Shown: piece by piece, positions 1 to 14,227 of the stretch
How positions within the stretch are numbered: the first letter of the stretch is position 1
Layout: each line of letters opens with the position of its first letter
Source of the DNA: Chthonomonadaceae bacterium
GTDB taxonomy: Bacteria > Armatimonadota > Chthonomonadetes > Chthonomonadales > Chthonomonadaceae
Assembly: GCA_027459665.1 (NCBI GenBank)
Contig: DAIDHN010000004.1
Span: 1 to 64,000, forward strand
Reading direction: 5' to 3'
DNA length: 64,000 nt
Notes under the pieces: model-generated
The model's input: only the letters and a program-made list of their open reading frames with translations
The model's database searches: none
Told to the model about the DNA's origin: nothing
Program-made: the position numbers and the translations under genes

Positions 1-162
1 CATCTCACCTGTGTCATGCTTTTCCCACTTCAGCAGGTTGTTGTGCAGCGGGCGCAAATTCATAATCGCTTTTCTGTCTACTGCCGGAGTTATCTTCAAA
101 AACGGAAGATACCTGCCAGCAGTATAGCGAAGCCTGGTTCCCAGCGGCAAACCTTCAGACAT
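1..162 (-). CDS. PqqD-like protein, C-terminus cut by window edge
   Basis: Only the first 54 codons are inside the window; the frame is open at base 1. The start is ATG at 162-160, preceded by AGGAAAGAG, and the stop of the upstream gene lies inside that ribosome-binding region, so the two genes are probably co-translated. The visible protein has a stretch reading LRPLHNNLLKWEKHDTGEM at residues 36-54, which resembles the 'RP.RN..v.WEe..dGe' opening of PqqD-family proteins seen in planctomycete-type genomes. PqqD itself is a peptide-binding chaperone for RiPP maturation, but many PqqD-like proteins have no known substrate. The assignment rests on a short match and is moderate; the role is unknown. 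Confidence 0.5.
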   Translation of the reverse strand, partial: MSEGLPLGTRLRYTAGRYLPFLKITPAVDRKAIMNLRPLHNNLLKWEKHDTGEM

Positions 163-171
163 ACTCTTTCC

Positions 172-1263
172 TTACAAATGGCACAGACAGCGCGTCATTA
201 TCTGCTGCATAAGCGGCTCCGATTTACGCCCCAGGTAGGTCTGTACCGCATAAATTTTGTTTTCTTCCACACAGTGCCACACGCCTCCCTCATACAGGGT
301 GGCCAGCGGAAGTGCAAGCCCGCGTGCCTCGCGAAAGATGCGTGCTTTTTCCGGCATGTTCACAGCGCCTTTATACACGAGTGCGCTGTGCCCGCGTGCA
401 AGGGTCTCTTCTGTTTTCTCCATACGCTTTAATGCCAGAGGAACGTTGATCTGAAACCATTCCTCCAGTTGAAAACGCTTCAGGGTCGTATCAGCCAGCC
501 CCCACCTGTCTATCACAATCTTTTCTCCATTGCGTAGAAACACAAGTCGCAAATGCCCCGAAAAAACTCTCTGCGTGTGCAGCCGAAACGACTCAGGAAC
601 ATACGCCTGCATGCCAAACAGCGCCCACAAATCAAACCCGTCACTGCTGTGGTCATACAGGGTGGCAAAAAGCTGTGCAGCAACACTTTGTATGGCATTG
701 CTCTCTCGCTGTATCCCTGCAATTTGGGCTATCACCAAACGGTTACAGGTATGGCAGTGCCATATCTTGCCCTGTCCTTTTCCCCCGCCCGAATACTGAA
801 AGGCTATGGCGGTGCGCTCACCATTCTCACCCTCTACCCGTTCTGGCTTCAAACTGCTCTCCAAAGCTCCTCCTGCTTTTCGGGCGCTTTTCGCAGTGTC
901 TTTCAGCACTTTTTCAAGCACTTTTTTCAATTCAGGAGGCGGTACTGGCGGGGAGGGGCGCTTGAACAGCTTTCGCACCCTCGGCGCAAGCACATCATAC
1001 AGCGTGCGTATCTGCCTGCTTGAGGTAGAAGCATCCTGCCATCTGATCTGCACGGTAAGCGCGCTTTCACCGGGAGCGTTCACACGCAGATACCCGCTTT
1101 CCTTTTCCATAGAAAAAGAAGTCAGGCTCCATTCAGGCGGCAGTTTGAAACGTATGCCCTGCCAGCCAATTACGGTTTGCTGCACCGCTTCGTCTGTTTC
1201 GTCTTCCTGCCGTTTGCGCGGCCTCGGAACAGCATTCGGTGCTGGCTGTGCAGTATCCGCCAC
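172..1263 (-). CDS. Uncharacterised protein with an internally duplicated WHC domain
   Basis: A 363-residue protein with no recognised family. The GTG at 1263-1261 is preferred over an upstream TTG because AAAGGAG sits 8 bases before it. The protein appears to hold two copies of one domain. Copy 1 begins near GIRFKLPPEWSL and ends with IWHCHTCNRLVIAQIAG. Copy 2 begins near GMQAYVPESFRL and ends with VWHCVEENKIYAVQTYLG. A charged, lysine-rich linker of about 70 residues interrupts copy 1. There is no signal peptide or membrane segment, so it is probably cytoplasmic. It lies 14 bases after the H-X9-DG gene and 9 bases before the PqqD-like gene, and presumably works with them. Confidence 0.75.
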   Translation of the reverse strand: MADTAQPAPNAVPRPRKRQEDETDEAVQQTVIGWQGIRFKLPPEWSLTSFSMEKESGYLRVNAPGESALTVQIRWQDASTSSRQIRTLYDVLAPRVRKLFKRPSPPVPPPELKKVLEKVLKDTAKSARKAGGALESSLKPERVEGENGERTAIAFQYSGGGKGQGKIWHCHTCNRLVIAQIAGIQRESNAIQSVAAQLFATLYDHSSDGFDLWALFGMQAYVPESFRLHTQRVFSGHLRLVFLRNGEKIVIDRWGLADTTLKRFQLEEWFQINVPLALKRMEKTEETLARGHSALVYKGAVNMPEKARIFREARGLALPLATLYEGGVWHCVEENKIYAVQTYLGRKSEPLMQQIMTRCLCHL

Positions 1264-1277
1264 GGTAAAGGCTCCTT

Positions 1278-2126
1278 TCAACGGGGTGCAACTCCCGCCA
1301 CATGTCCGTCCAGATAGAGTACATTGTCCTTTCCGTTGTGTCTGCCCGGGTTTGGCAGCCCGGTAAACGCGCTGTGCGCACCAGGTGCAAGGTCATTCGA
1401 GTCGAACAGCAGCGGGGTAGCAGATGCATTCGGCATTTTTGCCAGGCTAGCTGCACTCCCCAGGCTTTTGCCTGCCACCGCTGTGTTGTAGGCATAACCA
1501 AACTTGTTGTCATGGCCGTTTGACACTGCCGGGCAGTGCAGCTCTGAATTGTGCGGTACCCTTCCAATCAGGTCCTGATTAGAGGTCCAATTCACTGCGG
1601 GAGGCAGACCTCCCCAGTCCTGCGCATACATATTGAATGCGTTGTAGAGCGCTTTCAGGTTTTCGGCGCAGCTTCGAGGCACCTGCCCTGTATCCCCGCC
1701 GCCCTCAGTGCTGTTGGTAAACACCCCGGCGATGGTAATCACCTTGTGCAGCTCAAAGGCCGCCGCAGCTACGCACAGCAGGCAAAAAAACAGCACAGCA
1801 GCGCCTAATATGCTGCCCTCGCGTTTTTTTCCATTTTTCTTCACAGCAGCAGATGCCCCGCCGCCCAGCAGCGCCATCTCCAGTGCAGAACCCAGTGTAA
1901 GAGAAAGCAGCAGCACCAGGCTGCCGTACCTTTTTGAAAGGTACAGGCCCGCTCCCATTGAAACCATCAGCAGCAAAAATACCAGGGGAACCTGTAGCAG
2001 CACAGCTTTTTGAGCAGTAGCAGCTTTTTTGCCCATCTGCTGCGCTGTCGCATACAACGCCAGCACCACCAGCAGCACAGCCGCAACACCCAGAAACAGG
2101 TACCTATCCAAAGCAGCCTCAGTCAC
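1278..2126 (-). CDS. Membrane protein with C-terminal H-X9-DG (DUF1559-like) domain
   Basis: A 282-residue protein with a GTG start preceded by GAGGAGG at 5 bases. The N-terminal half has four hydrophobic segments (near residues 8-28, 43-63, 68-90 and 105-125). The C-terminal half starts with CAENLKALYNAFNMYAQDWG, the layout of DUF1559/prepilin-like domains common in planctomycetes and Armatimonadota, and ends in RHNGKDNVLYLDGHVAG, an exact H-X9-DG match. Classical members start with a type IV prepilin signal; here a multi-span anchor replaces it, so this is not an ordinary pseudopilin. It sits 10 bases after the OPT transporter gene, in the same operon. Confidence 0.8.
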   Translation of the reverse strand: MTEAALDRYLFLGVAAVLLVVLALYATAQQMGKKAATAQKAVLLQVPLVFLLLMVSMGAGLYLSKRYGSLVLLLSLTLGSALEMALLGGGASAAVKKNGKKREGSILGAAVLFFCLLCVAAAAFELHKVITIAGVFTNSTEGGGDTGQVPRSCAENLKALYNAFNMYAQDWGGLPPAVNWTSNQDLIGRVPHNSELHCPAVSNGHDNKFGYAYNTAVAGKSLGSAASLAKMPNASATPLLFDSNDLAPGAHSAFTGLPNPGRHNGKDNVLYLDGHVAGVAPR

Positions 2127-2136
2127 ACGCCCTCCT

Positions 2137-4176
2137 CTAGAACGGCAGATAGTTTACAGATTTTGCTATGAGCGCCAGTGCAATAGAGGCCATGGCAATC
2201 AAACCCGTGCCGCACGAAAACCCAGCAAGCAAAACCGGCGTATACTTGCGCCAGTTGTCTATGCCAAACCGTTTTTCAAAATAGTGCTTGCTCAGCCAGG
2301 CTCCCAAAAAGGTCATCAGCACATCTGGCGGATTCGCACCCACCCCTCCCACAAACCCATAGTAAAATAGCACAGGTATGCGCAGCAAAGAAAACAGGCC
2401 GTATGTGAGCAGGCCCGAAGCTATCCCCAGCCCGATGCGAGGGAAGTTGATTGCCAGATGCACCCACTGCATGCCGCCGCTTTTGGCATTGATCTTGTCG
2501 AACATAGCCTCAAAGGTTGCAGCAATTGGCCACATCTTATTTGCAAACGGAAATTGCGATGAGGGAATCTGGTTGGTGTGCCAGAAAAACGCCCAAAATA
2601 CAAAACTGGCTGGCAGCACTATCACAAACATAAGCGCCTCAGCCTTGATAAGGCTCACAAATTTTGTGCCTGTCAATTCCAATTCTCTAAAACGCTGCGC
2701 CAGGTACCCAAAATCGTTGAGCGGTATGGGAGCATACCAGGCGTCTACGTGCGTATACCCCGACTCCATAATAGAGATTTGCTGCAGAAACGGCACCGAT
2801 ACCGTACTGCCCGTGAGCGCATTCATGCGTGCAGATACATACGAGTTGATGGGCGACCATACTACGCCATAGAAAATCAGCAGCCACACCGGAAAGGTGT
2901 GCGGAATGCCATTGGTCTTGTCGCTGGAGATAAGATGCTCGCAAAGCAGCATGTAGAATACTGTAACAGAAGCCCAAATGGCTATTGGAAGCCAAATAGG
3001 CACGTCTCCGCGTCCCTTTGGAAGCGTCAGCTTCATGCCCCGGTTGCGCCTGGCGTTTTTCTCTGCGCGCAATACGCTTACCACACTTGCAAGGCCAATG
3101 ATGGCCACTGCAATCTGCAGGCCAATGGTAATAGAGAGCCAAAACTTAATATCCGTTACCTGCTTGGTGTAGATGCCGTTCATGCCCGGTGTCCAGCCAT
3201 TGGAGGTAGAATTGCCAAACAGCCCCAAGTGGTAGAAAAACGGTGCGCCAAACACTCTGAAGAGGAAGCAGCCCCACAGCGAACCCGCTACAATGGGGTA
3301 GGGTATCACAAAGCCGACGAGTGCATTGCCAATGTTTGGATTGATGCCTGTGATAGCGCCGGGCAGTATGCTTTGCGTGTTGGTTGTGGTATCGAGAAAC
3401 GGAATGGGCAGCAGCTGAAACGCATGCCCAAACACCACGCCGGTAAATACAGGGATGGCTATGTAGAGAAAGCCAAACAACAGACCTATGATGGTGCCAA
3501 TAGAAAATATGCTCCAGCGCCACGACTCTTCCTTCGAGGCGGCGTCTGCCAAAGCGGTTGCCCCCGATGCAGCCACTGGCGCCATTGGGAAGGGCAGTTG
3601 CTCTACATCTGAGGTAACGCGAAACAGAAAGTAGCCGGCGCTTATCCACATCAGGCGCCCCAGTACCTGCCCTGCTACCATCAAAAGAATGGGTTCAAGC
3701 CATGCCTTGTCAAGAAAAGTGCGGTGAATCAGGGCAGGAGAACCCGCAGGCGGCACCACCCAGTGCGGTATTGACTTTGCAACCAGAGCTGCCTGGGGTG
3801 ACTGCACAAAATACTGCGCCCAGATAAACCCGCCAAATGGGCCGCCCGACAAACCCTTGTCTGCTGCCAAACCTGTGAGAGAGGCGGCAATATAGTAAAG
3901 TATGTATATTTCCTGGCGTTTCATGGGCAGGAAGGAACGGCGCATGATCTCTGAGAAGAGAACTATGGTCACCCATTCTGCCGCCGGGCCAAGTCCCTGC
4001 CCTGCCACCAGCCCAAGATAGAGTGCGCCGGGCAGCATGATGAGCGCTACAAAAAGAGTGCCCACCACAGTTTTCGAGCTGAAGCCTTCTACGAATTCCG
4101 GGGCATTGCCCTGTTCGTCATTCGCCTCTACTTCAACCTGCTGTCTTGCACGTGCAATTTCGCTTTCAGCCGACAC
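2137..4176 (-). CDS. OPT-superfamily (DUF6785/6784-like) transporter
   Basis: A 679-residue polytopic membrane protein with roughly 14 hydrophobic segments. The GTG at 4176-4174 is chosen because GGGGAGG lies 8 bases upstream; a TTG 24 bases earlier has no such site. Residues near 35-100 (GTLFVALIMLPGALYLGLVAG and the following MRRSFLPMKRQEIY region) resemble the oligopeptide-transporter-like DUF6785 family of planctomycetes and Armatimonadota. OPT proteins move small peptides or metal chelates by proton coupling, but the substrates of this bacterial branch are not established. It follows the M28/FtsX fusion gene by 41 bases and precedes the H-X9-DG gene by 10 bases. A peptide-related role is inference from the neighbours. 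Confidence 0.75.
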   Translation of the reverse strand: MSAESEIARARQQVEVEANDEQGNAPEFVEGFSSKTVVGTLFVALIMLPGALYLGLVAGQGLGPAAEWVTIVLFSEIMRRSFLPMKRQEIYILYYIAASLTGLAADKGLSGGPFGGFIWAQYFVQSPQAALVAKSIPHWVVPPAGSPALIHRTFLDKAWLEPILLMVAGQVLGRLMWISAGYFLFRVTSDVEQLPFPMAPVAASGATALADAASKEESWRWSIFSIGTIIGLLFGFLYIAIPVFTGVVFGHAFQLLPIPFLDTTTNTQSILPGAITGINPNIGNALVGFVIPYPIVAGSLWGCFLFRVFGAPFFYHLGLFGNSTSNGWTPGMNGIYTKQVTDIKFWLSITIGLQIAVAIIGLASVVSVLRAEKNARRNRGMKLTLPKGRGDVPIWLPIAIWASVTVFYMLLCEHLISSDKTNGIPHTFPVWLLIFYGVVWSPINSYVSARMNALTGSTVSVPFLQQISIMESGYTHVDAWYAPIPLNDFGYLAQRFRELELTGTKFVSLIKAEALMFVIVLPASFVFWAFFWHTNQIPSSQFPFANKMWPIAATFEAMFDKINAKSGGMQWVHLAINFPRIGLGIASGLLTYGLFSLLRIPVLFYYGFVGGVGANPPDVLMTFLGAWLSKHYFEKRFGIDNWRKYTPVLLAGFSCGTGLIAMASIALALIAKSVNYLPF

Positions 4177-4217
4177 GCCTGGTGCCTCCCCATGGTACAA
4201 GTATGATGATGCCGCCG

Positions 4218-7200
4218 CTATGCATTGGCAGGCTCTGATTGCAATTCTTCACCCGTCAGATATTTCTCCCGTTCTGCTTGCTTGAGAGTACGCCAGATCA
4301 GGAACTGCTTTCTCAGCGTATTCAGGAACCTGCGATTCACGCGCTTCCAGTTGGATATGTCGCCGGAGACACGCTTCAGCACCAGATGTATCTCAAATAC
4401 ATCGGGGGTATCTGTAGGAGTCGTATCTACCGCGACATGCTGCGACACGCCCAGGTCGAACGGTGCAAGCCAGGCCATGCAGCTAATACGGTAGCCAGGC
4501 AGACCGTTCACTTCATACTCTTCGCTCTCCACCTTCTGGGTCACAAAGTCGCCAATGCTGTACTCTTCATATGCTTTCAGCCATTCATTCAAAAATGAGT
4601 TGAGGCCGGAAGCCTGATCGCCCGTGACAGCAAACGGCAGCGGAATGCGCCAGTCATCGCCATCTGGGTCGGGAACCCGCCAGTGACGGTCTACTGCCGG
4701 GGTAGCCACCTCAGAAGCCTTGCGAGCCGGATAAATAGTGGAAAGCAGAACCACCGCAACAACAATTAGCGTGGTGCCCACCGCACTGGTGCTTGAGAAG
4801 TTAAGGTAGAGTGAAGGAACCCAGCCCGTAAGCACCAGCAGTTTGCTTAGCAGCTGCCCCAGCAGATACCCTGCCACCGAGCCAAGTATGGCATACACAA
4901 GTGCCTCGGCAATAAACAGCATGCCTATGTGTGAGGGCGACAGCCCAATAGAAGAGAAAATGTGTATCTCGCGAATGCGCTCATACACCGAGTTGAGCAT
5001 GGTGTTCAGCACAATGAGCGATGCCAGTATAATGGGAAACAGCACCAGCTCCAGCCCCGAAGACGAGGTAGCCGCAATAGATGAGAACCGGTACACCTTG
5101 CCCACCTGCGCCGCCGTGTCTGCATGAGGATGCATTACCTGCCCTGCGTAGATGTTCAGATCGAGCCTGTGCATCAGCGGGTCGAGCTGCTTCATTACTT
5201 CCATTGGATTGTTGAAGTCTATTGCGATTGAGCGTAGCTGCGCCCCCATATCCATAGCGGTTCGGTAAGGTATGAAGAACACCATGTCTGGTTCAAGGTG
5301 AATATAGTTCTGAAAGCCCTGCGATGCCCCGCCGCCCCCGCCGCCGCCGCTGGACTGCGACTGCTTGCTCATGGCTATGAAGTCAACAGGAGTAAGCATT
5401 TCGTTGTCTAGGTCGAGTATGTGCTTCAGCTTCTGGCTGTCGAGTATGCCAATCACACGGTATTTCACGCCGCTGTAGTTTACGGTAGCAGTGCCCACAT
5501 CACGCAGCCCTATGTGCAGTGACTGTGCAATGGTATCGGGCAGAATCACATCATACCGGTCGCCCTGCCGAAACCATCTGCCAACGGTCTGCCCTGAGCT
5601 GTTTTTCAGCAGTGCATCCTGGGGTCTGGAAATATGGCTCTCTTCTGGCGACAGGCCGCAAAGTGCTCTGGCATCGTACGAGCGGTCGGCACGCTTCAGC
5701 GTAAGGAACGACTGTTCGCCGGGAGATGTACCGTAGAACCACGCACGCGGCGCTACCGAATAGTTTCTGCCGTATTCATCTGACAGAATGCGGTATGCCG
5801 GTTCCTGCAGAGGGTCCCACATAGGGGTGCGTATCATTATGCCGCTGTACCGCGGGCCAAAGTCGCTGGGAGCGCTCACCTTGTTGAAACGCATTACCTG
5901 CACCACCGAGGTAAACGAAAGCACTGTGAAAGTAAGCAGAATCAGCGTGATGCAGGTAAGCGCCGTTCGTGTTTTGCGTCTGCGCATGTTGGAAATGCCC
6001 AGATTGAATGCTGCCAGCGCCACCGAGACCCGCCCGATGTCCACCTTGTGTACGCCCCCCATGCTCTGGCTCATCTGTTTCACCTGCTCTTCAAACTTGC
6101 CAACAATCATTCCAATCACGATAGAAGATAGGGCAAGCATTACGAAGGCAAGCAGCACGATAACCGGGTTCATAGTGATGTCAAAGGCAGGGTGTATGTA
6201 CCTGAACACAATAAAGATCAGCAGGAATATCAGTGCTGCCGTACTCAGCTGCCTCTTGAGATCAAAGAAGCCAAAAAGCAGTCTTTCAGAGAAGTATGCA
6301 AAGGGCATGAGCAGCGCCAGGTAGAAAATCACTCCTTCCACCACATCCATGGCAGTTTGCTGCACATCCGGGTAGGCGCGGCTTTCCAGGCCCCATGCCT
6401 CTCTTGAACGGGCATCAAAGAGTTCCCAGTTTTTTTCGGCTCGGGCTTTTTTGGCCTTCTCTATCTCGATTTTGGCCATATTGTGCAGCCCGGGCACTCC
6501 CTCGCTGCTCTTCATATCGAGAATGCGAAAATTCGCCAGCCGCCTCATGCGGTAATCGTCAAGCTTCCACATATCCTCAGCTACATGCAGCGCAGTATCG
6601 TAGATTGCCCCTGAGCGTGCTATTTCGCCTTTCGAATTCACTGCAGCAGGCGTACTGGAGGTGGTTCCTCCATTCAGATCGGCGTTCTGCCTCTCGCTCG
6701 CGTTGCCCGCCACTAAATACCCTACGCCTGTAGGGGCGGGGGAATAGGTGGGGTTGAAAGGATGCCTGAAGTCGTACTTTGAATTGATAAGCAGCAGCCT
6801 TGTATCGCCAGGGCCGCTGGTCATGGCGATTTTCAGACGCGCTCCCGGCTGGGCAAAAAGCACTGCCAGGTCTTCTACATACGATGAAGAGTTTGCGCTG
6901 TCTTGCGGGGCCAAGGCATAACCGAACATACGGGGTTCGCCATCGGTTGATCCATCGTAAATACTTATTCCCGTAAGAGCCTGCAGCGACTGCTGGTCTA
7001 CCAGGTCATATATGGCAGTAGGCACGCATCTGAACACAACAATGGGCGCGGCTGTGGTGGCTGTAGTTACCTGCAGAGAAAGAGGTACTGCCTCTGCGCC
7101 TTCCGGCCCCTGATCAGGGGCATAGTCGATCTGTCCGCGGTGCGGATTTGGTTCCTGTTCGCCGCTGCCGTCTGGGTTCAGGCGGTAGTTGTTTTCATCC

Positions 7201-9353
7201 AGATGATAGGCTTCCAAAGAAACCTGCCGATTGTACCCGTATGCAGTAAGCGGCGCTACGCCCGGAATGGAGTAGTAGTCTTCGCAGGGAATATGCATGC
7301 CTGAAGCAGTAAGAGCTTCGCCTGTTTTGGGGTCGATTTGGGTAGGCTCTCCCTGCGAGTTGAGCTGCAGTTCCTTCATTTTATCCGGCGTAGTCCACTC
7401 AGCCGGGGCAATCATGTTTCCCCGCACCCCCATAAAACTCTTGGTCTGATTGCGCAGCACCACCAGCGTATTCACCAGTTTGGGGTCGGGGCTGGCGATA
7501 AACGAGCGTTTGGGGTTGAATATCTCTACATGACCATCTACCGTGGCAAAGCCTCCCTGCAGCGCAAGGCGAGACCATGCCGACGGATCGTGGATGGGCA
7601 TTTGCAGCTTGGAACTGTCACGCTGGTCATTAGGGTCGGTTACTATGTGCCACATGAGGCAGTTGAGCAGCCGCAGCTGTGTTGCCAAATTGGATATGTT
7701 GATGTGTGATGGGAGGTCGAAAGGCGTATCCACCAGGTTTCTGCTGTCGTTGGTGGTAGCAAAAGTCACGCCGTTTCCGCCCGCCATAGTCACCGGTTCA
7801 GAATCGAAGGCTGGCTGCCCGGGAATATAGTTGCGCCAGTTTTTTCCATCTACCGGGTTCACGCCGTCATTGAAATACTGCGTCGAGTCGAAGCCGAAAG
7901 TTTGCCCTACATAGTCAGCATTTTCGCGGCACACGCGCGCTATGTCGCTGAAGCGCCCCTGTATGTCTTCTCGAAAATCGTAGAACCACCCCTTGTAGAA
8001 AATTCCCACCGATTTAGACTGGCTCGAAAGGTCAAGGCCGCACCAAAGGTATATTTTCGGCGGCTGCCGCAGCGAATCAGAATGCGGGCTGAGATAAAAC
8101 CCGCCGTTGAGGGCCAGCATCACAAGCAGAGATATGCCCATCGTGATAGAGAAGCCATTTACCCGTGCAGTTCCGGGGGCTGTTTTCTGCCGCAGGGCGG
8201 CAATGAACAGCAGTAGAAACACTGCCAGAAATATGCCCAGCCACGCTCCCACCTTTGCCTCATTCTGCTGGGCAAGCGCCGACTGAATGGTGCTGGGAGG
8301 CATCCACGAATTCATGTGCTTGTTGAGGTATTCGCGTATACCCTGCAGTGCCTGAAAATGCGCGCTGCATGCTACGAACCACATTGTGCGCTTGGGAGGG
8401 TGAGCCTTGAAGGCACGCATCATCTCCAGCATGCCAGCGACTCCGCAGGCAGACTCAGCACCCGGGGCGAGAGCAGGTACAATAGATGTTGAATCGTAGT
8501 AGCTTTCAACTACTATCACCTGCTTCTTGAGTTTGGGGTCGCTGCCTGGCAGTATGCCTGTGAAATTGCGGCATATCTCCTGCTTCCAGGGCATGTTGCA
8601 ATGCAGCGTTACCGTAGGCGGCCTGCCGCCTGCACATGCCGCAAGCAAAGGGGCCGCCTGGCTTTGCGTCATGTAGAAGCGGGGTATGGAAACGGGTACG
8701 CCAATAAACTTGCTGTCGGCTTCGCCGCGCAGCGTAGAATCTGGCGCGATGAATATCACTGCCTTGGCGCCAAGCCGGGGAGCATTCAGCCACTGCTGCC
8801 CGCAGTTGAAATCAACCAGTGCAATCGAACCTTCCACATTCTTGCCGTTGAAATTGTTCAGGTGTCCATCCCCCACATAAATCAGGGGAGCAGTGAGGCC
8901 GTTGGCGGGAAGTGTGGAAGTTTGCACCAGATTGGGCCAGAGTGGATACATGCGCAGATGCTGCCCTGCACCGGCAGCATCCAGAGTGGCATAGGCCCCG
9001 CGGGCGGGGTCAGACACAACAGGATCGTAGGGAATTACAATGGGGAAGCTGTCGGTATGAACATTGTTGCTGCCAAGTATGCCGCACATTTGGGAATAAA
9101 CGTAGTCAGCTGCCTTCTTCTCACCAGGGTAGCCTGCAATTCTGCTGCCAAAGCCGGCAAGAGTATCTACAGTCTGCTTCAGATTGACAGGGCTGACGCC
9201 TGCATAAAACTGCCTGTACATTGGCGCAAGACCAGCTGGAACCGGGTCTGCATGTGCCATGAATGGCAGGGACAATATACCGAGCGCAACGCAGAGAAAC
9301 GCACCCACGAAACTGCGTACGCGCCACCATGGGTTTTTCCCAATGCAAGGCAT
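4218..9353 (-). CDS. M28-peptidase-like/FtsX-type permease fusion, exported
   Basis: A 1,711-residue protein. The start is ATG 9353 with AAAGGGAAG upstream, opening a signal peptide (residues 1-36, ending FMAHADP). Residues about 60-350 are an M28 aminopeptidase-like fold with a PA-like insert near 155-245. The expected metal-binding motifs are degraded: HxD reads YYDS (285-288), the GADDNASG loop reads GAESACG (298-304) and the EE pair reads HF (332-333). Two membrane segments follow near 375-430. A large exported region leads to a MacB/FtsX-like permease with transmembrane segments on both sides of an extracytoplasmic domain that contains a run of seven glycines. No ATPase gene is visible beside it. 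It is probably a non-catalytic binding or scaffold domain fused to a mechanotransmission permease. Confidence 0.8.
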   Translation of the reverse strand: MPCIGKNPWWRVRSFVGAFLCVALGILSLPFMAHADPVPAGLAPMYRQFYAGVSPVNLKQTVDTLAGFGSRIAGYPGEKKAADYVYSQMCGILGSNNVHTDSFPIVIPYDPVVSDPARGAYATLDAAGAGQHLRMYPLWPNLVQTSTLPANGLTAPLIYVGDGHLNNFNGKNVEGSIALVDFNCGQQWLNAPRLGAKAVIFIAPDSTLRGEADSKFIGVPVSIPRFYMTQSQAAPLLAACAGGRPPTVTLHCNMPWKQEICRNFTGILPGSDPKLKKQVIVVESYYDSTSIVPALAPGAESACGVAGMLEMMRAFKAHPPKRTMWFVACSAHFQALQGIREYLNKHMNSWMPPSTIQSALAQQNEAKVGAWLGIFLAVFLLLFIAALRQKTAPGTARVNGFSITMGISLLVMLALNGGFYLSPHSDSLRQPPKIYLWCGLDLSSQSKSVGIFYKGWFYDFREDIQGRFSDIARVCRENADYVGQTFGFDSTQYFNDGVNPVDGKNWRNYIPGQPAFDSEPVTMAGGNGVTFATTNDSRNLVDTPFDLPSHINISNLATQLRLLNCLMWHIVTDPNDQRDSSKLQMPIHDPSAWSRLALQGGFATVDGHVEIFNPKRSFIASPDPKLVNTLVVLRNQTKSFMGVRGNMIAPAEWTTPDKMKELQLNSQGEPTQIDPKTGEALTASGMHIPCEDYYSIPGVAPLTAYGYNRQVSLEAYHLDENNYRLNPDGSGEQEPNPHRGQIDYAPDQGPEGAEAVPLSLQVTTATTAAPIVVFRCVPTAIYDLVDQQSLQALTGISIYDGSTDGEPRMFGYALAPQDSANSSSYVEDLAVLFAQPGARLKIAMTSGPGDTRLLLINSKYDFRHPFNPTYSPAPTGVGYLVAGNASERQNADLNGGTTSSTPAAVNSKGEIARSGAIYDTALHVAEDMWKLDDYRMRRLANFRILDMKSSEGVPGLHNMAKIEIEKAKKARAEKNWELFDARSREAWGLESRAYPDVQQTAMDVVEGVIFYLALLMPFAYFSERLLFGFFDLKRQLSTAALIFLLIFIVFRYIHPAFDITMNPVIVLLAFVMLALSSIVIGMIVGKFEEQVKQMSQSMGGVHKVDIGRVSVALAAFNLGISNMRRRKTRTALTCITLILLTFTVLSFTSVVQVMRFNKVSAPSDFGPRYSGIMIRTPMWDPLQEPAYRILSDEYGRNYSVAPRAWFYGTSPGEQSFLTLKRADRSYDARALCGLSPEESHISRPQDALLKNSSGQTVGRWFRQGDRYDVILPDTIAQSLHIGLRDVGTATVNYSGVKYRVIGILDSQKLKHILDLDNEMLTPVDFIAMSKQSQSSGGGGGGGASQGFQNYIHLEPDMVFFIPYRTAMDMGAQLRSIAIDFNNPMEVMKQLDPLMHRLDLNIYAGQVMHPHADTAAQVGKVYRFSSIAATSSSGLELVLFPIILASLIVLNTMLNSVYERIREIHIFSSIGLSPSHIGMLFIAEALVYAILGSVAGYLLGQLLSKLLVLTGWVPSLYLNFSSTSAVGTTLIVVAVVLLSTIYPARKASEVATPAVDRHWRVPDPDGDDWRIPLPFAVTGDQASGLNSFLNEWLKAYEEYSIGDFVTQKVESEEYEVNGLPGYRISCMAWLAPFDLGVSQHVAVDTTPTDTPDVFEIHLVLKRVSGDISNWKRVNRRFLNTLRKQFLIWRTLKQAEREKYLTGEELQSEPANA

Positions 9354-9522
9354 AAACACTTCCCTTTCCTGAAAAAGAGCGGAGTTACTGACTGTAGAGG
9401 TACGGCTTTGCACCGTCACAGCTTATTTCATACTCTGTTTGACACCAAAATCGCAAATTCCTGCATTATTTTTCTTATTTGCCCCAAAATCTGCGCAAAA
9501 TCTGCCTGCAAGTCTTTATAGC

Positions 9523-10848
9523 TCATCCGCGCCGGCAAATCTGCATGGGCAGGCCATTTCTGGGGCGAAGCGTAACAGCGGTCTGCAAATGGGGGGCGTA
9601 CCCTTCAGCGGTTCTAAACGTAAGCAGCTTTACCAGGGTGGCAAGCACCAGGGTGAGTTCTTGCATGGCGAAGCTGTTCCCAATACAAACCCGCGGGCCG
9701 CCGCCAAATGGAAAGTAGGCGTACCGCGGTAGCCCCTCTGACTCGCCTTCTGCCCACCGTTCAGGTCGAAACTCCTCAGGGACACTGTACCAGCGGGGAT
9801 CGCGATGCACCACCCACTGGCTCATAAATACAGTGCGGCCAGCGGGTATCTCCACGCCGTTCAGCATGCAGGGTGCAGAGGCTCTTCGCCCCATAGACCA
9901 GGCTGGTGGGTAAAGCCTCATTGCTTCCTGCAACACCTGCCGTGTATAGCAAAGCGCCTCCCTGTCTTCGTACTGCGGCATTCTGCCTCCCGGCAGAGCA
10001 TCTACTTCCTTGTGCATCTTTTCTGCCACAGCAGAGTGTTTCTCCAGCAGGTACAGTGTCCAGGTGAGCGCAAGTGCAGTTGTTTCGTGCCCTGCCAAAA
10101 ACAGCGTAAGCACTTCATCACGCAACTGACGGTCTGTCATTTGCTCCCCGTCCGTTTCCTGTGCCTCCAGCAGCATAGAAAGCAAATCACCCCGGTCTCC
10201 GCCCTCTTTTCTACGTCGTTCAATCAACCTGAATACAACAGCATCCAGGCTGGCAATAGCCCTTCGCAGCTGCCCTGGCAGCGGCATTGGGCACCAGTCG
10301 GGCAGCATAACCGCCAAAGTAATCCATCGGTCAAAAGCGTTTTGCACTACCTCCAGTGCCCTGCCGGCCATTTCCCCTTCCTGCACATCTGTGTTGAACA
10401 GGGTGCGCACCACTATTTCCAGCGTAAGTTCTGCCAGCTTCTTCTGCATATCCATCACGCTGTTTTCGGGCCACTGCAAGGCATGTTTGCATGCGGTTTC
10501 TGTCATCACCTCTGCATAACGCGCTATGCGTTCTCTGTGAAAAGCAGGCTGCACCAGCTTGCGCTGCCTGCGCCAAAACTCTCCCTCACTGGTAAGCAGG
10601 CCATTGCCAAACAGCACCTGGGTGCGCTGTAAACCTTTTCCCTTGTAATAGCTGTGGTGATCTGTCACCAAAACCTGCTCAATCAGGTCTGGGTGACTCA
10701 CGTACAGCATTGTCATGCCCCCAAAGCGTATGGGCACCATATCGCCATATTCACGCGTGCAGCGAGTTAGAAAATCGAGCGGGCTTTTTTGAAACTCACT
10801 CAGGTGGCCTAGAAGCGGACGGGCGGGAGGAGCCGCCAGCCCTTTCAT
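9523..10848 (-). CDS. Cytochrome P450
   Basis: A 441-residue haem-thiolate monooxygenase. The I-helix oxygen-activation motif AGHETT, the K-helix ExxR in EAMRLYPP and the haem-ligand loop FPFGGGPRVCIGNSFAMQE with its cysteine are all present. There is no membrane anchor. The start is ATG 10848, whose last bases overlap the proS stop in an ATGA arrangement, so translation is coupled to proS. P450s need an electron-transfer partner; no ferredoxin or reductase gene lies nearby. The substrate cannot be inferred. The loop and helix motifs resemble the long-chain or fatty-acid-type bacterial P450s more than the camphor type, but that is a loose impression. Confidence 0.93.
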   Translation of the reverse strand: MKGLAAPPARPLLGHLSEFQKSPLDFLTRCTREYGDMVPIRFGGMTMLYVSHPDLIEQVLVTDHHSYYKGKGLQRTQVLFGNGLLTSEGEFWRRQRKLVQPAFHRERIARYAEVMTETACKHALQWPENSVMDMQKKLAELTLEIVVRTLFNTDVQEGEMAGRALEVVQNAFDRWITLAVMLPDWCPMPLPGQLRRAIASLDAVVFRLIERRRKEGGDRGDLLSMLLEAQETDGEQMTDRQLRDEVLTLFLAGHETTALALTWTLYLLEKHSAVAEKMHKEVDALPGGRMPQYEDREALCYTRQVLQEAMRLYPPAWSMGRRASAPCMLNGVEIPAGRTVFMSQWVVHRDPRWYSVPEEFRPERWAEGESEGLPRYAYFPFGGGPRVCIGNSFAMQELTLVLATLVKLLTFRTAEGYAPHLQTAVTLRPRNGLPMQICRRG

Positions 10849-12635
10849 GGCTTCGCCGAACTTGCAGCATGCCACCTGGGTGCGTTTGCTGCCGAAATTC
10901 GAATCTCTTGCAGTTGTCTCTCAATCTCTGTTTTCGCCTCGTTTACCGCCTCTTCCAACGGCACCATGGTGCGTTCTGTACCTGTGCGAAGTTTCCATTC
11001 CACTCCCCCATTCGTCAGCGAGCGTTCTGAAATCACCATCTGCAGCGGCAGTCCGCGCAAATCGGCATCAGCAAATTTCACACCTGCCGAAACCTCTTTT
11101 CTATCGTCAAACAGCACTTCTATCTCTTCGGCAAGCATCTGTCTGTACAGCTCCTCGGCACGTATCTGCGCCTCTTCTGTGCGGCACAGTGAAATCAGCG
11201 ATACCTGATACGGCGCGATACTCATGGGCAGCGCCAGTCCACGCTCATCCCGGTGCTGCTCTGCTGCGCAGGCTAGCAGGCGACCTACTCCAATGCCGTA
11301 AGACCCCATTACAATGGGCTTCGCACTGCCATCCTCACCCAGGTAAGTCGCTCCCATAGCGGCGGTGTAGCGGGTTCCCAGTTGAAAAATATTCCCTACC
11401 TCCACGCCTCGTTTCATTTGCAAGGGCGAACCGCAGTCCACGCAGGCAAACCCCTCGTCTGCAAGCGCAATGTTGGTTACTTTCTCAGGCACAAAATCTC
11501 TTCCCATGCATACGTTGATGTAGTGGTACCCTTCCTCATTTGCACCTGCCGCCAGGCTGGTTTCTTCTGCCACCTGCGTGTCTGCCAGTACAAACACATT
11601 CCGGTCGGTAACGCCTACCGGAGAGGCATAGCCTGCCACCATGCCTGCAGCGGCTATTTCTTCTACCAGAGCCGATCGCAAATCTGTACACTGCACTGCG
11701 TTCTTTACCAATATCGGGTTGGCATCCATGTCGCCGCGCACCAGGGCAATCACCAGCCGGGCCGGCTTCTCCGCCCCATAGCCCGCCACAAAAAACACTG
11801 CCTTGCAGGTTTGCCTCGCCTCAATGCCGAGGCAGGCGCAAAGGTCCTGAATGGTTTTGGCGCCAGGCGTAGCCACTTTCTCCAATGGGGCAGGTGCAGA
11901 CTGCACACCAGGGGTTTTGCGAAACAGCGCTACTTCCTGGTTGGCTGCATATCCGCAGTGGGGGCACACAGCCAAAGTATCCTCACCAATGGGGGTTATA
12001 AACATAAACTCATGCGCTTCCTGGCCGCCCATCATGCCAACATCGCTGCCAACCGCCGTGAGGCTCAGCCCCGCACGCAGCCCAATTCTATGATAGGCGT
12101 CGTAATGCCGTACATACTGCTCTCGCAGTCCTTCTTCATCTCGGTCGAGGGTATACGAGTCTTTCATAATAAATTCGCGCACACGTATCAAGCCTCCGCG
12201 CGCTCTCGGCTCATCGCGAAACTTGGTTTGCAGCTGATACACCATTTGGGGCAGCTGCCGGTAAGAACGTATCTCCGAGCGCGCCAGTTCTGCCACCACT
12301 TCTTCATGGGTCATGGCCAGCAGCATATCGTGCCCTCTGCGGTCCTTAAACCGCACCATGGTTTCATCTATCGCCTGCCATCTTCCTGTCTGCTGCCACA
12401 GTTCAGCCGGGTGTACCACAGGCATGGCAATTTCCTGGCCGCCAATGGCATCCATTTCTTCGCGAAGTATGGCTTCAATTTTGCGCAGCGATCGCTGTGC
12501 CAGAGGCAGGTAGGAAAATATACCGCTTGCCAGCTGTCTGATAAAGCCAGCGCGCAGCATAAGCTGATGAGATACAATTTCTGTATCGTTGGGCGCCTCG
12601 CGAATGGTCTCCCCGAAAAGTGTGGTAACTCGCAT
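10845..12635 (-). CDS. proS: Prolyl-tRNA synthetase, bacterial type
   Basis: A 596-residue class II synthetase that charges tRNA-Pro with proline. The start is ATG 12635 with AGGAG 7 bases upstream; in-frame upstream codons are not needed. The N-terminus (TLFGETIREAP, RQLASGIFSYLPL) is typical of the bacterial form. Motif 2 lies in TKFRDEPRARGGLIRVREF, a cis-editing insertion follows at roughly residues 220-400, and the C-terminal anticodon-binding domain follows the GSYGIGVGRLLA region. A short cysteine pair (CPHCGYAANQEVA) starts the insert, as in other bacterial ProS. The downstream P450 overlaps its stop by four bases. Confidence 0.97.
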   Translation of the reverse strand: MRVTTLFGETIREAPNDTEIVSHQLMLRAGFIRQLASGIFSYLPLAQRSLRKIEAILREEMDAIGGQEIAMPVVHPAELWQQTGRWQAIDETMVRFKDRRGHDMLLAMTHEEVVAELARSEIRSYRQLPQMVYQLQTKFRDEPRARGGLIRVREFIMKDSYTLDRDEEGLREQYVRHYDAYHRIGLRAGLSLTAVGSDVGMMGGQEAHEFMFITPIGEDTLAVCPHCGYAANQEVALFRKTPGVQSAPAPLEKVATPGAKTIQDLCACLGIEARQTCKAVFFVAGYGAEKPARLVIALVRGDMDANPILVKNAVQCTDLRSALVEEIAAAGMVAGYASPVGVTDRNVFVLADTQVAEETSLAAGANEEGYHYINVCMGRDFVPEKVTNIALADEGFACVDCGSPLQMKRGVEVGNIFQLGTRYTAAMGATYLGEDGSAKPIVMGSYGIGVGRLLACAAEQHRDERGLALPMSIAPYQVSLISLCRTEEAQIRAEELYRQMLAEEIEVLFDDRKEVSAGVKFADADLRGLPLQMVISERSLTNGGVEWKLRTGTERTMVPLEEAVNEAKTEIERQLQEIRISAANAPRWHAASSAKP

Positions 12636-12996: not shown

Positions 12997-13395
12997 ATGC
13001 CTTCCTACAGCAATATGCTTCTGGTGGGTCTGGGAGGAGTGGCGGGCGCCAACGCACGCTTCTTTTTCAGCCGCTTCATAGCAAACCGCACAGATACCGG
13101 CTTTCCATGGGGAACGCTGGTTGTGAATGTCACCGGCAGCTTCATTATGGGTTTGCTAGCTGTATTGTCTGCCGGGCTGCACTGGAACCCACAGTGGGGA
13201 CTGTTGGCAGCAACCGGCTTCACCGGGGCTTACACGACCTATTCTACATTTGAATACGAAACTTTTGCTCTCGTGCAGGATGGCAGCCTGCGCCGGGCGG
13301 CATTCAACTTTCTGCTCAGTTTTCTGCTTGGGTTTGCCGCCCTCTTCACAGGAGCAGGACTGGCGAACATGATTGTTGAAAGGAGTGGCAAATGA
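12997..13395 (+). CDS. crcB: Fluoride exporter subunit CrcB/FluC, first copy
   Basis: A 132-residue small membrane protein with four hydrophobic segments. It carries the FluC signatures GGVAGANARFF near the N-terminus, NVTGSFIMG in the second segment and TGFTGAYTTYSTFEYE in the third. FluC channels let fluoride leave the cytoplasm and work as antiparallel dimers. GGAG precedes the ATG by 8 bases, immediately after the riboswitch terminator. Its last codon overlaps the start of the second crcB gene (ATGA), so the two are made together, fitting a heterodimeric pair. Confidence 0.95.
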   Translation: MPSYSNMLLVGLGGVAGANARFFFSRFIANRTDTGFPWGTLVVNVTGSFIMGLLAVLSAGLHWNPQWGLLAATGFTGAYTTYSTFEYETFALVQDGSLRRAAFNFLLSFLLGFAALFTGAGLANMIVERSGK

Positions 13396-13853
13396 CGCAG
13401 CAGGATAACCTGCCCGCACAGAAACCGCGCCAGAGCAGCAGAACTGCAGGAGGCACAGCCTTTTTTAGCACCCTAATGACAATTGGGGCTGGAGGGTTTG
13501 CGGGCGCCAACGCACGCTACCTTGCAAGCCTCTGGATTCAGCACCAGGCAGGTACTGCCTTTCCATACGATACGCTGCTCATCAACGTAACTGGCTGCTA
13601 CGTGCTGGGCGTGTTCAGCTCTCTGCTGCAGCGCACTGCAGTCAGCGATACCTGGCGCCTGCTTGTCGCCATCGGCTTTCTGGGTGGCTACACTACGTTT
13701 TCAACCTTTGAACTCAATCTCTATACCCTGGTGCAAAAAGGAAATTTTGTACCTGCATTACTCTATCTGCTGCTAAGCATGGCACTTGGATTCCTGGCAG
13801 TTTACCTGGGGGTAGTTACGGTTCGGCTGTTTTTTGCACACAGCAGGCAGTAG
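13392..13853 (+). CDS. crcB: Fluoride exporter subunit CrcB/FluC, second copy
   Basis: A 153-residue partner of the preceding protein with the same layout: GGFAGANARYL, NVTGCYVLG and IGFLGGYTTFSTFELN. It differs in two ways. It has an N-terminal extension of about 30 polar residues before the first membrane segment, and the usual GSF after NVT reads GCY. AAGGAG precedes the ATG. Paired unequal crcB genes are known to form obligate heterodimers in Firmicutes; the same is inferred here from the coupled reading frames. Confidence 0.93.
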   Translation: MTQQDNLPAQKPRQSSRTAGGTAFFSTLMTIGAGGFAGANARYLASLWIQHQAGTAFPYDTLLINVTGCYVLGVFSSLLQRTAVSDTWRLLVAIGFLGGYTTFSTFELNLYTLVQKGNFVPALLYLLLSMALGFLAVYLGVVTVRLFFAHSRQ

Positions 13854-13876
13854 AAGAATAAAGAAGGGAGATACTC

Positions 13877-14227
13877 ATGAATATCACAGGCCCGGGCAAG
13901 GTGATCAGCATCTACATTGGCGGCAGAGACCAGTGGCGTGGCAAAGCGCTGTACAATGCCATTGTGCTTCTGGCACGCTCAAAAGGCATGGCAGGAGCCA
14001 CCGTTACGCAGGGTTTGGAGGGATACGGCGCAAGCAGCCGAGTACACAGGGTTTCTCTACTTGACCTGTCTACCGATCTGCCCATCAAGGTGGAAATAGT
14101 AGATACGCAAGAGAAAATAGAGAACTTTTTACCCGAACTGATGCCTATGGTTGAAGGCGGCCTGGTAACAGTGCGCGACTGTGAAATTGTACATTACCTG
14201 GCTCACCAGCAAGCTGAGGGGGAGTAA
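13877..14227 (+). CDS. DUF190 PII-like protein
   Basis: A 116-residue soluble protein matching the DUF190 family: LYIGG-like start, ALYNAIVLLARSKGMAGATVTQGLEGYG, then LPIKVEIVDTQEKIENFLPEL and a final strand GGLVTVRDCEIV. The fold is a ferredoxin-like trimer related to PII signalling proteins. DUF190 genes are often found beside crcB, so it may regulate or sense something for the fluoride channels, but the ligand is unknown. GGGAG lies 6 bases before the ATG. The gene is 23 bases behind crcB and under the same riboswitch. Confidence 0.88.
   Translation: MNITGPGKVISIYIGGRDQWRGKALYNAIVLLARSKGMAGATVTQGLEGYGASSRVHRVSLLDLSTDLPIKVEIVDTQEKIENFLPELMPMVEGGLVTVRDCEIVHYLAHQQAEGE

Follow-up and report, generated by a model that had tools for sequence, protein, structure and literature searches.

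Type VII ABC proteins, a class that includes MacB, LolCDE, FtsEX, YbbAP and BceAB, are built from permease halves of the FtsX type and an ABC ATPase that is a separate protein. In one source (PMC12646458), they are described as performing mechanical work on the periplasmic side of the membrane without a pore, and the YbbAP-TesA system of E. coli as coupling a Type VII ABC protein to a hydrolase. According to another (PMC5985334), the Porter subdomain seemed to be present in all members, and BceB has one periplasmic domain for its two halves.

Here, we describe a conserved unit of six genes in Armatimonadota, encoding a fusion of M28-like and FtsX-type domains (FUS), an OPT-type transporter, a tandem-domain protein (DUP), a PqqD-like protein, a mini-FtsX protein (MFX) and an ABC ATPase. 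The unit resembles the Type VII machines in its FtsX-type permease halves and separate ATPase, and BceB in the single putative periplasmic domain that would serve two halves (PMC5985334); FUS-MFX appears to fit an asymmetric form of the class. It differs from that class in that the FUS half carries, in fusion, a complete predicted pseudo-M28 domain together with six more hydrophobic segments and a cytosolic domain, likewise conserved, at the C-terminus, whereas the MFX half consists of 208 aa without a periplasmic domain. With YbbAP-TesA it shares the joining of a Type VII ABC protein to a periplasmic hydrolase-type protein (PMC12646458), but the hydrolase-type domain of FUS is of the M28 kind, permease-fused and altered at its active site, and the OPT, DUP and PqqD partners are additional in the Armatimonadota unit. 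The predicted M28 fold of FUS, including the PA insert, is that of YwaD-type aminopeptidases, nicalin and the transferrin receptor; in contrast to these relatives, FUS has a predicted transmembrane hairpin inside the M28 fold and an ABC permease half fused to it. Nicalin and the transferrin receptor are themselves non-peptidase members of the M28 group. The parts belong to known folds, the architecture is unusual and the co-inheritance is unusually strong; a literature search that reached few subscription papers found no published description of the unit.

A gene cluster that continues across a contig end

The window (the whole stretch of DNA analysed) covers the initial 64 kb of contig C4 in the assembly and begins at a contig end, so that the sequence left of base 1 lies outside it. 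Five genes of interest are located at this end:

4218..9353, minus strand: FUS, the M28-like/FtsX fusion; start ATG at 9353 (1711 aa), with an in-frame GTG at 9419 upstream also possible (1733 aa)
2137..4176, minus strand: OPT-type multispanning transporter; GTG at 4176 is the likelier start, TTG at 4200 is possible (687 aa)
1278..2126, minus strand: accessory H-X9-DG protein; the sequence contains the motif, has TM helices in its N-terminal part and resembles pseudopilins in its C-terminal part
172..1263, minus strand: DUP, the tandem-domain protein; GTG at 1263 is the likelier start, TTG at 1281 is possible
1..162, minus strand: N-terminal 54 codons of the PqqD-like gene, which continues in contig C6

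FUS residue numbers are counted from GTG 9419 (1733 aa). Assuming the starts with the better-looking ribosome-binding sites, the successive gaps from FUS to the PqqD-like gene are 41, 10, 14 and 9 bases, and all five genes lie on the minus strand, which bears out the tight packing (gaps of 9-41 bases) described in an earlier note on this DNA. The same note took the five genes as the span of the cluster; the cluster stands, but its extent does not, because the operon runs beyond base 1 into contig C6. The ends of C6 and C4 share 15 bp and join the PqqD-like reading frame (153 aa in all), the PqqD-domain match sitting at the right end of C6. Past the join, C6 carries, in order, the end of the PqqD-like gene, the 208-aa MFX, the 247-aa ABC ATPase, a 394-aa protein and a D-2-hydroxyacid dehydrogenase. 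An ABC ATPase had been predicted left of base 1 and is present there, with Walker A, signature and Walker B readable. A RiPP-type gene, which the note named as the alternative for the same place, was not found in the portion of the left flank covered by ORF reading.

The last result bears on the possibility that the locus serves RiPP export or maturation, with the PqqD-like protein as leader-peptide receptor. The C-terminal part of this protein, encoded in C6, scores 49 bits against PF05402 (cut-off 23.4), and its profile matches PqqD structures, including a lasso-peptide PqqD chaperone (9x90, E 3.8e-7), as such a role would have it; against it, no precursor or radical-SAM gene was seen by ORF reading, in which small precursors could be missed, in the left flank read or in the conserved unit. 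We consider a RiPP locus highly improbable.

Several neighbouring genes are recorded here as separate observations. Immediately upstream of the operon, and sharing its strand, is a cytochrome P450 gene (window 9523-10875, minus strand), which was not seen in the conserved unit. Two adjacent CrcB genes, of the fluoride-channel family, are followed by a DUF190 gene (window 12997-14224, plus strand), all three being confirmed by Pfam. The 394-aa protein 3' of the ATPase (L072 16970-18154, minus strand) is without a confident Pfam family and has a relative at the equivalent place in 5 of the 40 loci described below.

Gene order and joint inheritance in Armatimonadota

A single-protein search found the OPT-type protein encoded in 54 of 61 genomes, the genome under study included. 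A search of plasmids for OPT gave no match. Forty stretches of at most 20 kb each were fetched around the OPT-type gene, and their genes were labelled with per-gene profiles. The order FUS-OPT-(H-X9-DG)-DUP-PqqD-MFX-ATPase was found in 27 of the 40 loci, across 14 families of the phylum; this count includes five loci in which FUS is cut by a contig edge (L049, L050, L061, L065 and L071) and one with a split OPT frame (L036). Because it is conserved across 14 families, the gene order is far from chance. The other loci have MFX-ATPase ahead of FUS-OPT (two; L054 and L058), FUS-OPT without the rest of the row (six; L047, L052, L056, L060, L062 and L063) or an additional or solitary OPT copy unaccompanied by the other genes (four; L053, L055, L057 and L059), and one runs into a contig edge (L068). 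Scanning named genomes with the ectodomain of FUS returned 298 relatives, the best 80 loci of which were kept; these carry the labels of Armatimonadota classes including Chthonomonas, some plain bacterium labels and two Bacillota labels. Among these best 80 of 298, 44 loci have at least 7.5 kb of sequence downstream of FUS, and the full order is present in 30 and absent from 14 of them.

The H-X9-DG gene is adjacent mainly in the taxonomic order to which the window belongs (families f1-f3), and its product scores 14.2 against TIGR04294, below the cut-off of 19. Of the five genes that had been read as one cluster, FUS, OPT, DUP and PqqD belong together, and the H-X9-DG gene is accessory.

We searched 201 genomes of the phylum with profiles for FUS, MFX and OPT, presence being defined as E < 1e-40. 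FUS was present in 152 genomes and MFX and OPT in 149 each; all three were found together in 141, none in 45 and a partial set in 15, several of which are fragmented. Fisher tests gave p ~1e-32 for both FUS-MFX and FUS-OPT over the 201 genomes, uncorrected for phylogeny, and comparison within families is a better test of co-inheritance than this count. In family f14, MFX and OPT are present in 8 of 8 genomes with FUS and in 0 of 25 without it; in family f19, the genomes with FUS have MFX in 8 of 8 and OPT in 7 of 8, versus 0 of 7 for those lacking FUS. Among 39 chosen genomes, DUP accompanies FUS in 26 of 27 and the PqqD-like protein in 27 of 27, and each occurs in 0 of 12 FUS-negative genomes.

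Physical linkage does not explain this co-inheritance, since an f14 genome may carry OPT, FUS and the DUP-PqqD-MFX block on separate contigs (C4, C6 and C8 in G151, for example) and still have all of them. The refuting condition named in the earlier note, scattered genes in relatives, thus had a mixed outcome: the genes are dispersed in some families, yet still occur together. From the co-inheritance of FUS, MFX, OPT, DUP and PqqD, the unit comprises at least five genes; the ATPase is counted as the sixth by its linkage to MFX, because ATPases of this family are so widespread that counting their presence would tell little.

FUS, MFX and OPT are jointly missing from 25 of 33 f14 genomes, even within one genus: in g31, the group of G041, G101, G178 and G193 differs from that of G077, G139, G147 and G151 in their presence. 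The f14 pattern suggests repeated joint loss or gain.

Predicted architecture of the encoded proteins

FUS exceeds the Pfam cut-offs for FtsX (PF02687; 60.5 bits, cut-off 25.5) and Peptidase_M28 (32.4 bits), and scores 22.5 bits, below the cut-off of 27, against MacB_PCD, marking a candidate for the periplasmic Porter domain expected between TM1 and TM2. Hydropathy indicates ten hydrophobic segments, and the predicted parts are arranged as follows:

FUS, N-terminal part: signal anchor, M28-like domain that has a PA insert and is interrupted by a transmembrane hairpin, beta-rich domain (~655-880)
FUS, C-terminal part: three further TM helices, FtsX half-permease with a MacB-like periplasmic loop, cytosolic C-terminal domain

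Sixty sequences went into an AlphaFold model of residues 60-1150, whose mean pLDDT is 88.5. The model matches the M28 aminopeptidase 1amp (Z 30.0, rmsd 2.6, 271 of 291 residues aligned) and, more widely, PA-containing M28 proteins; the sequence profile matches 2ek8 (E 5e-24) and nicalin (E 5.7e-10). The 1amp match spans model residues 2-538, which would place the two hydrophobic segments at 390-443 inside the M28 fold; in the model, a transmembrane hairpin divides an otherwise complete M28/PA fold. Among the matches listed, which M28 proteins filled, none assigned a fold to the beta-rich domain. Judged by identity to the window protein, the cytosolic C-terminal domain (58-73% in 18 relatives) is better conserved than the ectodomain (37-67% in 21 relatives).

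Two other assignments were rejected. The C-terminal domain was considered as a third DUP-like domain and dropped (hhalign probability 0.3%), and FUS is not a full-length equivalog of MacB (25.8 vs 966), LolCE (20.7 vs 362) or FtsX (FtsX_actino, 24.3 vs 250).

Active-site positions were read from 76 aligned FUS sequences, using the M28 enzyme numbering for the positions of the metal ligands and the catalytic Glu (H97, D117, E151, E152, D179 and H256). H97 corresponds to Tyr307 (Tyr in 70 of 76), D117 to Glu/Asp322 (Glu or Asp in 73 of 76), E151 to His354 (His in 76 of 76), E152 to Phe355 (Phe in 70 of 76), D179 to Asp463 (Asp in 76 of 76) and H256 to Asp564 (Asp in 74 of 76); D309 is also kept in all 76. 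In this alignment, the canonical two-metal site is lost and its replacement residues are strictly conserved, and the replaced ligands lend support to the earlier description of FUS as a pseudo-peptidase. We considered and rejected a reading in which E152 had become His and H256 had become Asp in a reciprocal exchange preserving a metal site, the alignment putting His354 at Glu151 and Phe355 at Glu152. The Asp, Glu, His and Tyr that are conserved at the former active site could nonetheless bind metal, and the title of PDB entry 2anp calls a Glu151-to-His mutant of a genuine M28 enzyme functional; because of these residues and 2anp, FUS might still possess enzymatic activity.

Such activity is required by one alternative, in which, in the manner of YbbAP-TesA, the ABC part would pull a hydrophobic or lipidated molecule from the inner membrane to the M28-derived domain, the remodelled M28 site would still do chemistry and the OPT-type protein would handle the released product. 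The pairing of a Type VII ABC protein and a periplasmic hydrolase is already established (PMC12646458), and the conservation of D309, H354 and D463 in 76 of 76 sequences and of D564 in 74 of 76 speaks for this alternative, since a pocket with these residues kept is under selection; the replacement of H97, E152 and H256 by Tyr, Phe and Asp speaks against it. On balance, we regard extraction with retained chemistry as unlikely.

MFX (208 aa) scores 54.7 bits against FtsX (PF02687; cut-off 25.5), and the ATPase (247 aa) scores 121.5 bits against ABC_tran (PF00005; cut-off 25) with Walker A, signature and Walker B motifs intact. In most aligned MFX proteins, a short loop takes the place of the periplasmic domain of other Type VII ABC permeases, similar to the description of one half of BceB (PMC5985334). 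In some lineages, SLBB domains, which are typical of polysaccharide export proteins, lie between the first two TM segments of MFX; the match exceeds the cut-off in the MFX protein of L153 (10396-11712; 62.4 bits) and is sub-threshold in those of L154 (9890-11530), L155 (4248-5621) and L115 (18945-20216). In those families, the SLBB domains of the MFX loop are more easily reconciled with a glycan than with a peptide as substrate, and they are the point in favour of export or remodelling related to glycan or peptidoglycan, in which the periplasmic domains would bind polysaccharide (compare the control of wall enzymes by FtsEX). Most aligned MFX proteins lack SLBB, however, and the conserved unit contains no glycan gene. 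We consider a glycan system quite improbable.

The AlphaFold model of DUP (pLDDT 89.6) matches 2xb3 over residues 33-211 (Z 14.0), and 3hlz (Z 12.1) and 4luq (Z 11.2) over residues ~212-369, so that DUP models as two Mog1/PsbP-like domains. Both halves thus match the fold of Mog1/PsbP/DcrB/Eag-type proteins, from which DUP differs in its tandem arrangement, its conserved Cys/His positions and the lack of a convincing Pfam match among 24 members; its profile gave no usable match to PDB sequences. The alignment contains a conserved W-x-C-x2-C motif and a C-terminal Cys-His, and the invariant Cys176, Cys179, His211, Cys337 and Cys367 may bind metal.

The OPT-type protein of the window has no Pfam match, PF03169 being matched by 2 of 26 aligned members (best E 2.6e-5), and the profile of the family gave no usable match to PDB sequences; the assignment to the OPT family is weak. 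A paralogous FUS branch was observed with a DUF6785/DUF6784-type membrane protein directly upstream of FUS instead of OPT downstream. A DUF6785-like gene occupies this position in 11 of the best 80 of 298 loci (L123 7342-9348, L140, L135, L136, L141, L143, L147, L148, L133, L137 and L128), two of them identified by Pfam. Comparison of the DUF6785 and OPT profiles (probability 54%, E 1.3e-4, 172 columns) is suggestive only, and DUF6785 proteins may be distant relatives of OPT.

A proposed envelope machine

The earlier note suggested an undescribed peptide-handling or envelope system; that the genes form one undescribed envelope system is supported by the conserved order, the joint gain or loss in 201 genomes and the ATPase in the left flank. 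We think it probable that the cluster encodes a single envelope machine with an asymmetric Type VII (MacB/FtsX-class) ABC transporter as motor, an OPT partner and hand-over by DUP and the PqqD-like protein; complex formation, the roles of the parts, direction and substrate we infer. In this machine, FUS would be one permease half and MFX, without a periplasmic domain, the other, both driven by the separate ATPase. Hydrolysis of ATP would set the periplasmic domains of FUS in motion, above all its degenerate M28/PA domain, which would act as a substrate receptor or gate and not as an enzyme. The obligate OPT partner would provide the path across the inner membrane, for which it is the natural candidate because a Type VII motor provides none. 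The cytosolic DUP and PqqD-like proteins would hand over or receive the substrate.

From family resemblances, the substrate would most likely be a peptide or a peptide-containing envelope molecule. Peptide uptake in particular, with peptides received by the PqqD-like protein and DUP, is a first guess that we rate as less likely than not. We are similarly doubtful of a hybrid transport machine in which an ABC motor that forms no pore acts mechanically, by way of the pseudo-peptidase receptor, to load or gate an OPT-type channel distinct from it, with DUP and the PqqD-like protein as dedicated chaperones in the cytosol. To our knowledge, a combination of primary and secondary transporters such as an ABC motor with an OPT channel has no described counterpart.

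Judged by the presence of FUS, the unit occurs in about three quarters of the Armatimonadota genomes sampled. If the proposed architecture is correct, it would extend the Type VII ABC machines to a form in which one half is bare and the other bears a repurposed protease fold. Strict co-inheritance also links the OPT-type transporter with the ABC motor, which makes a specific physical complex testable.
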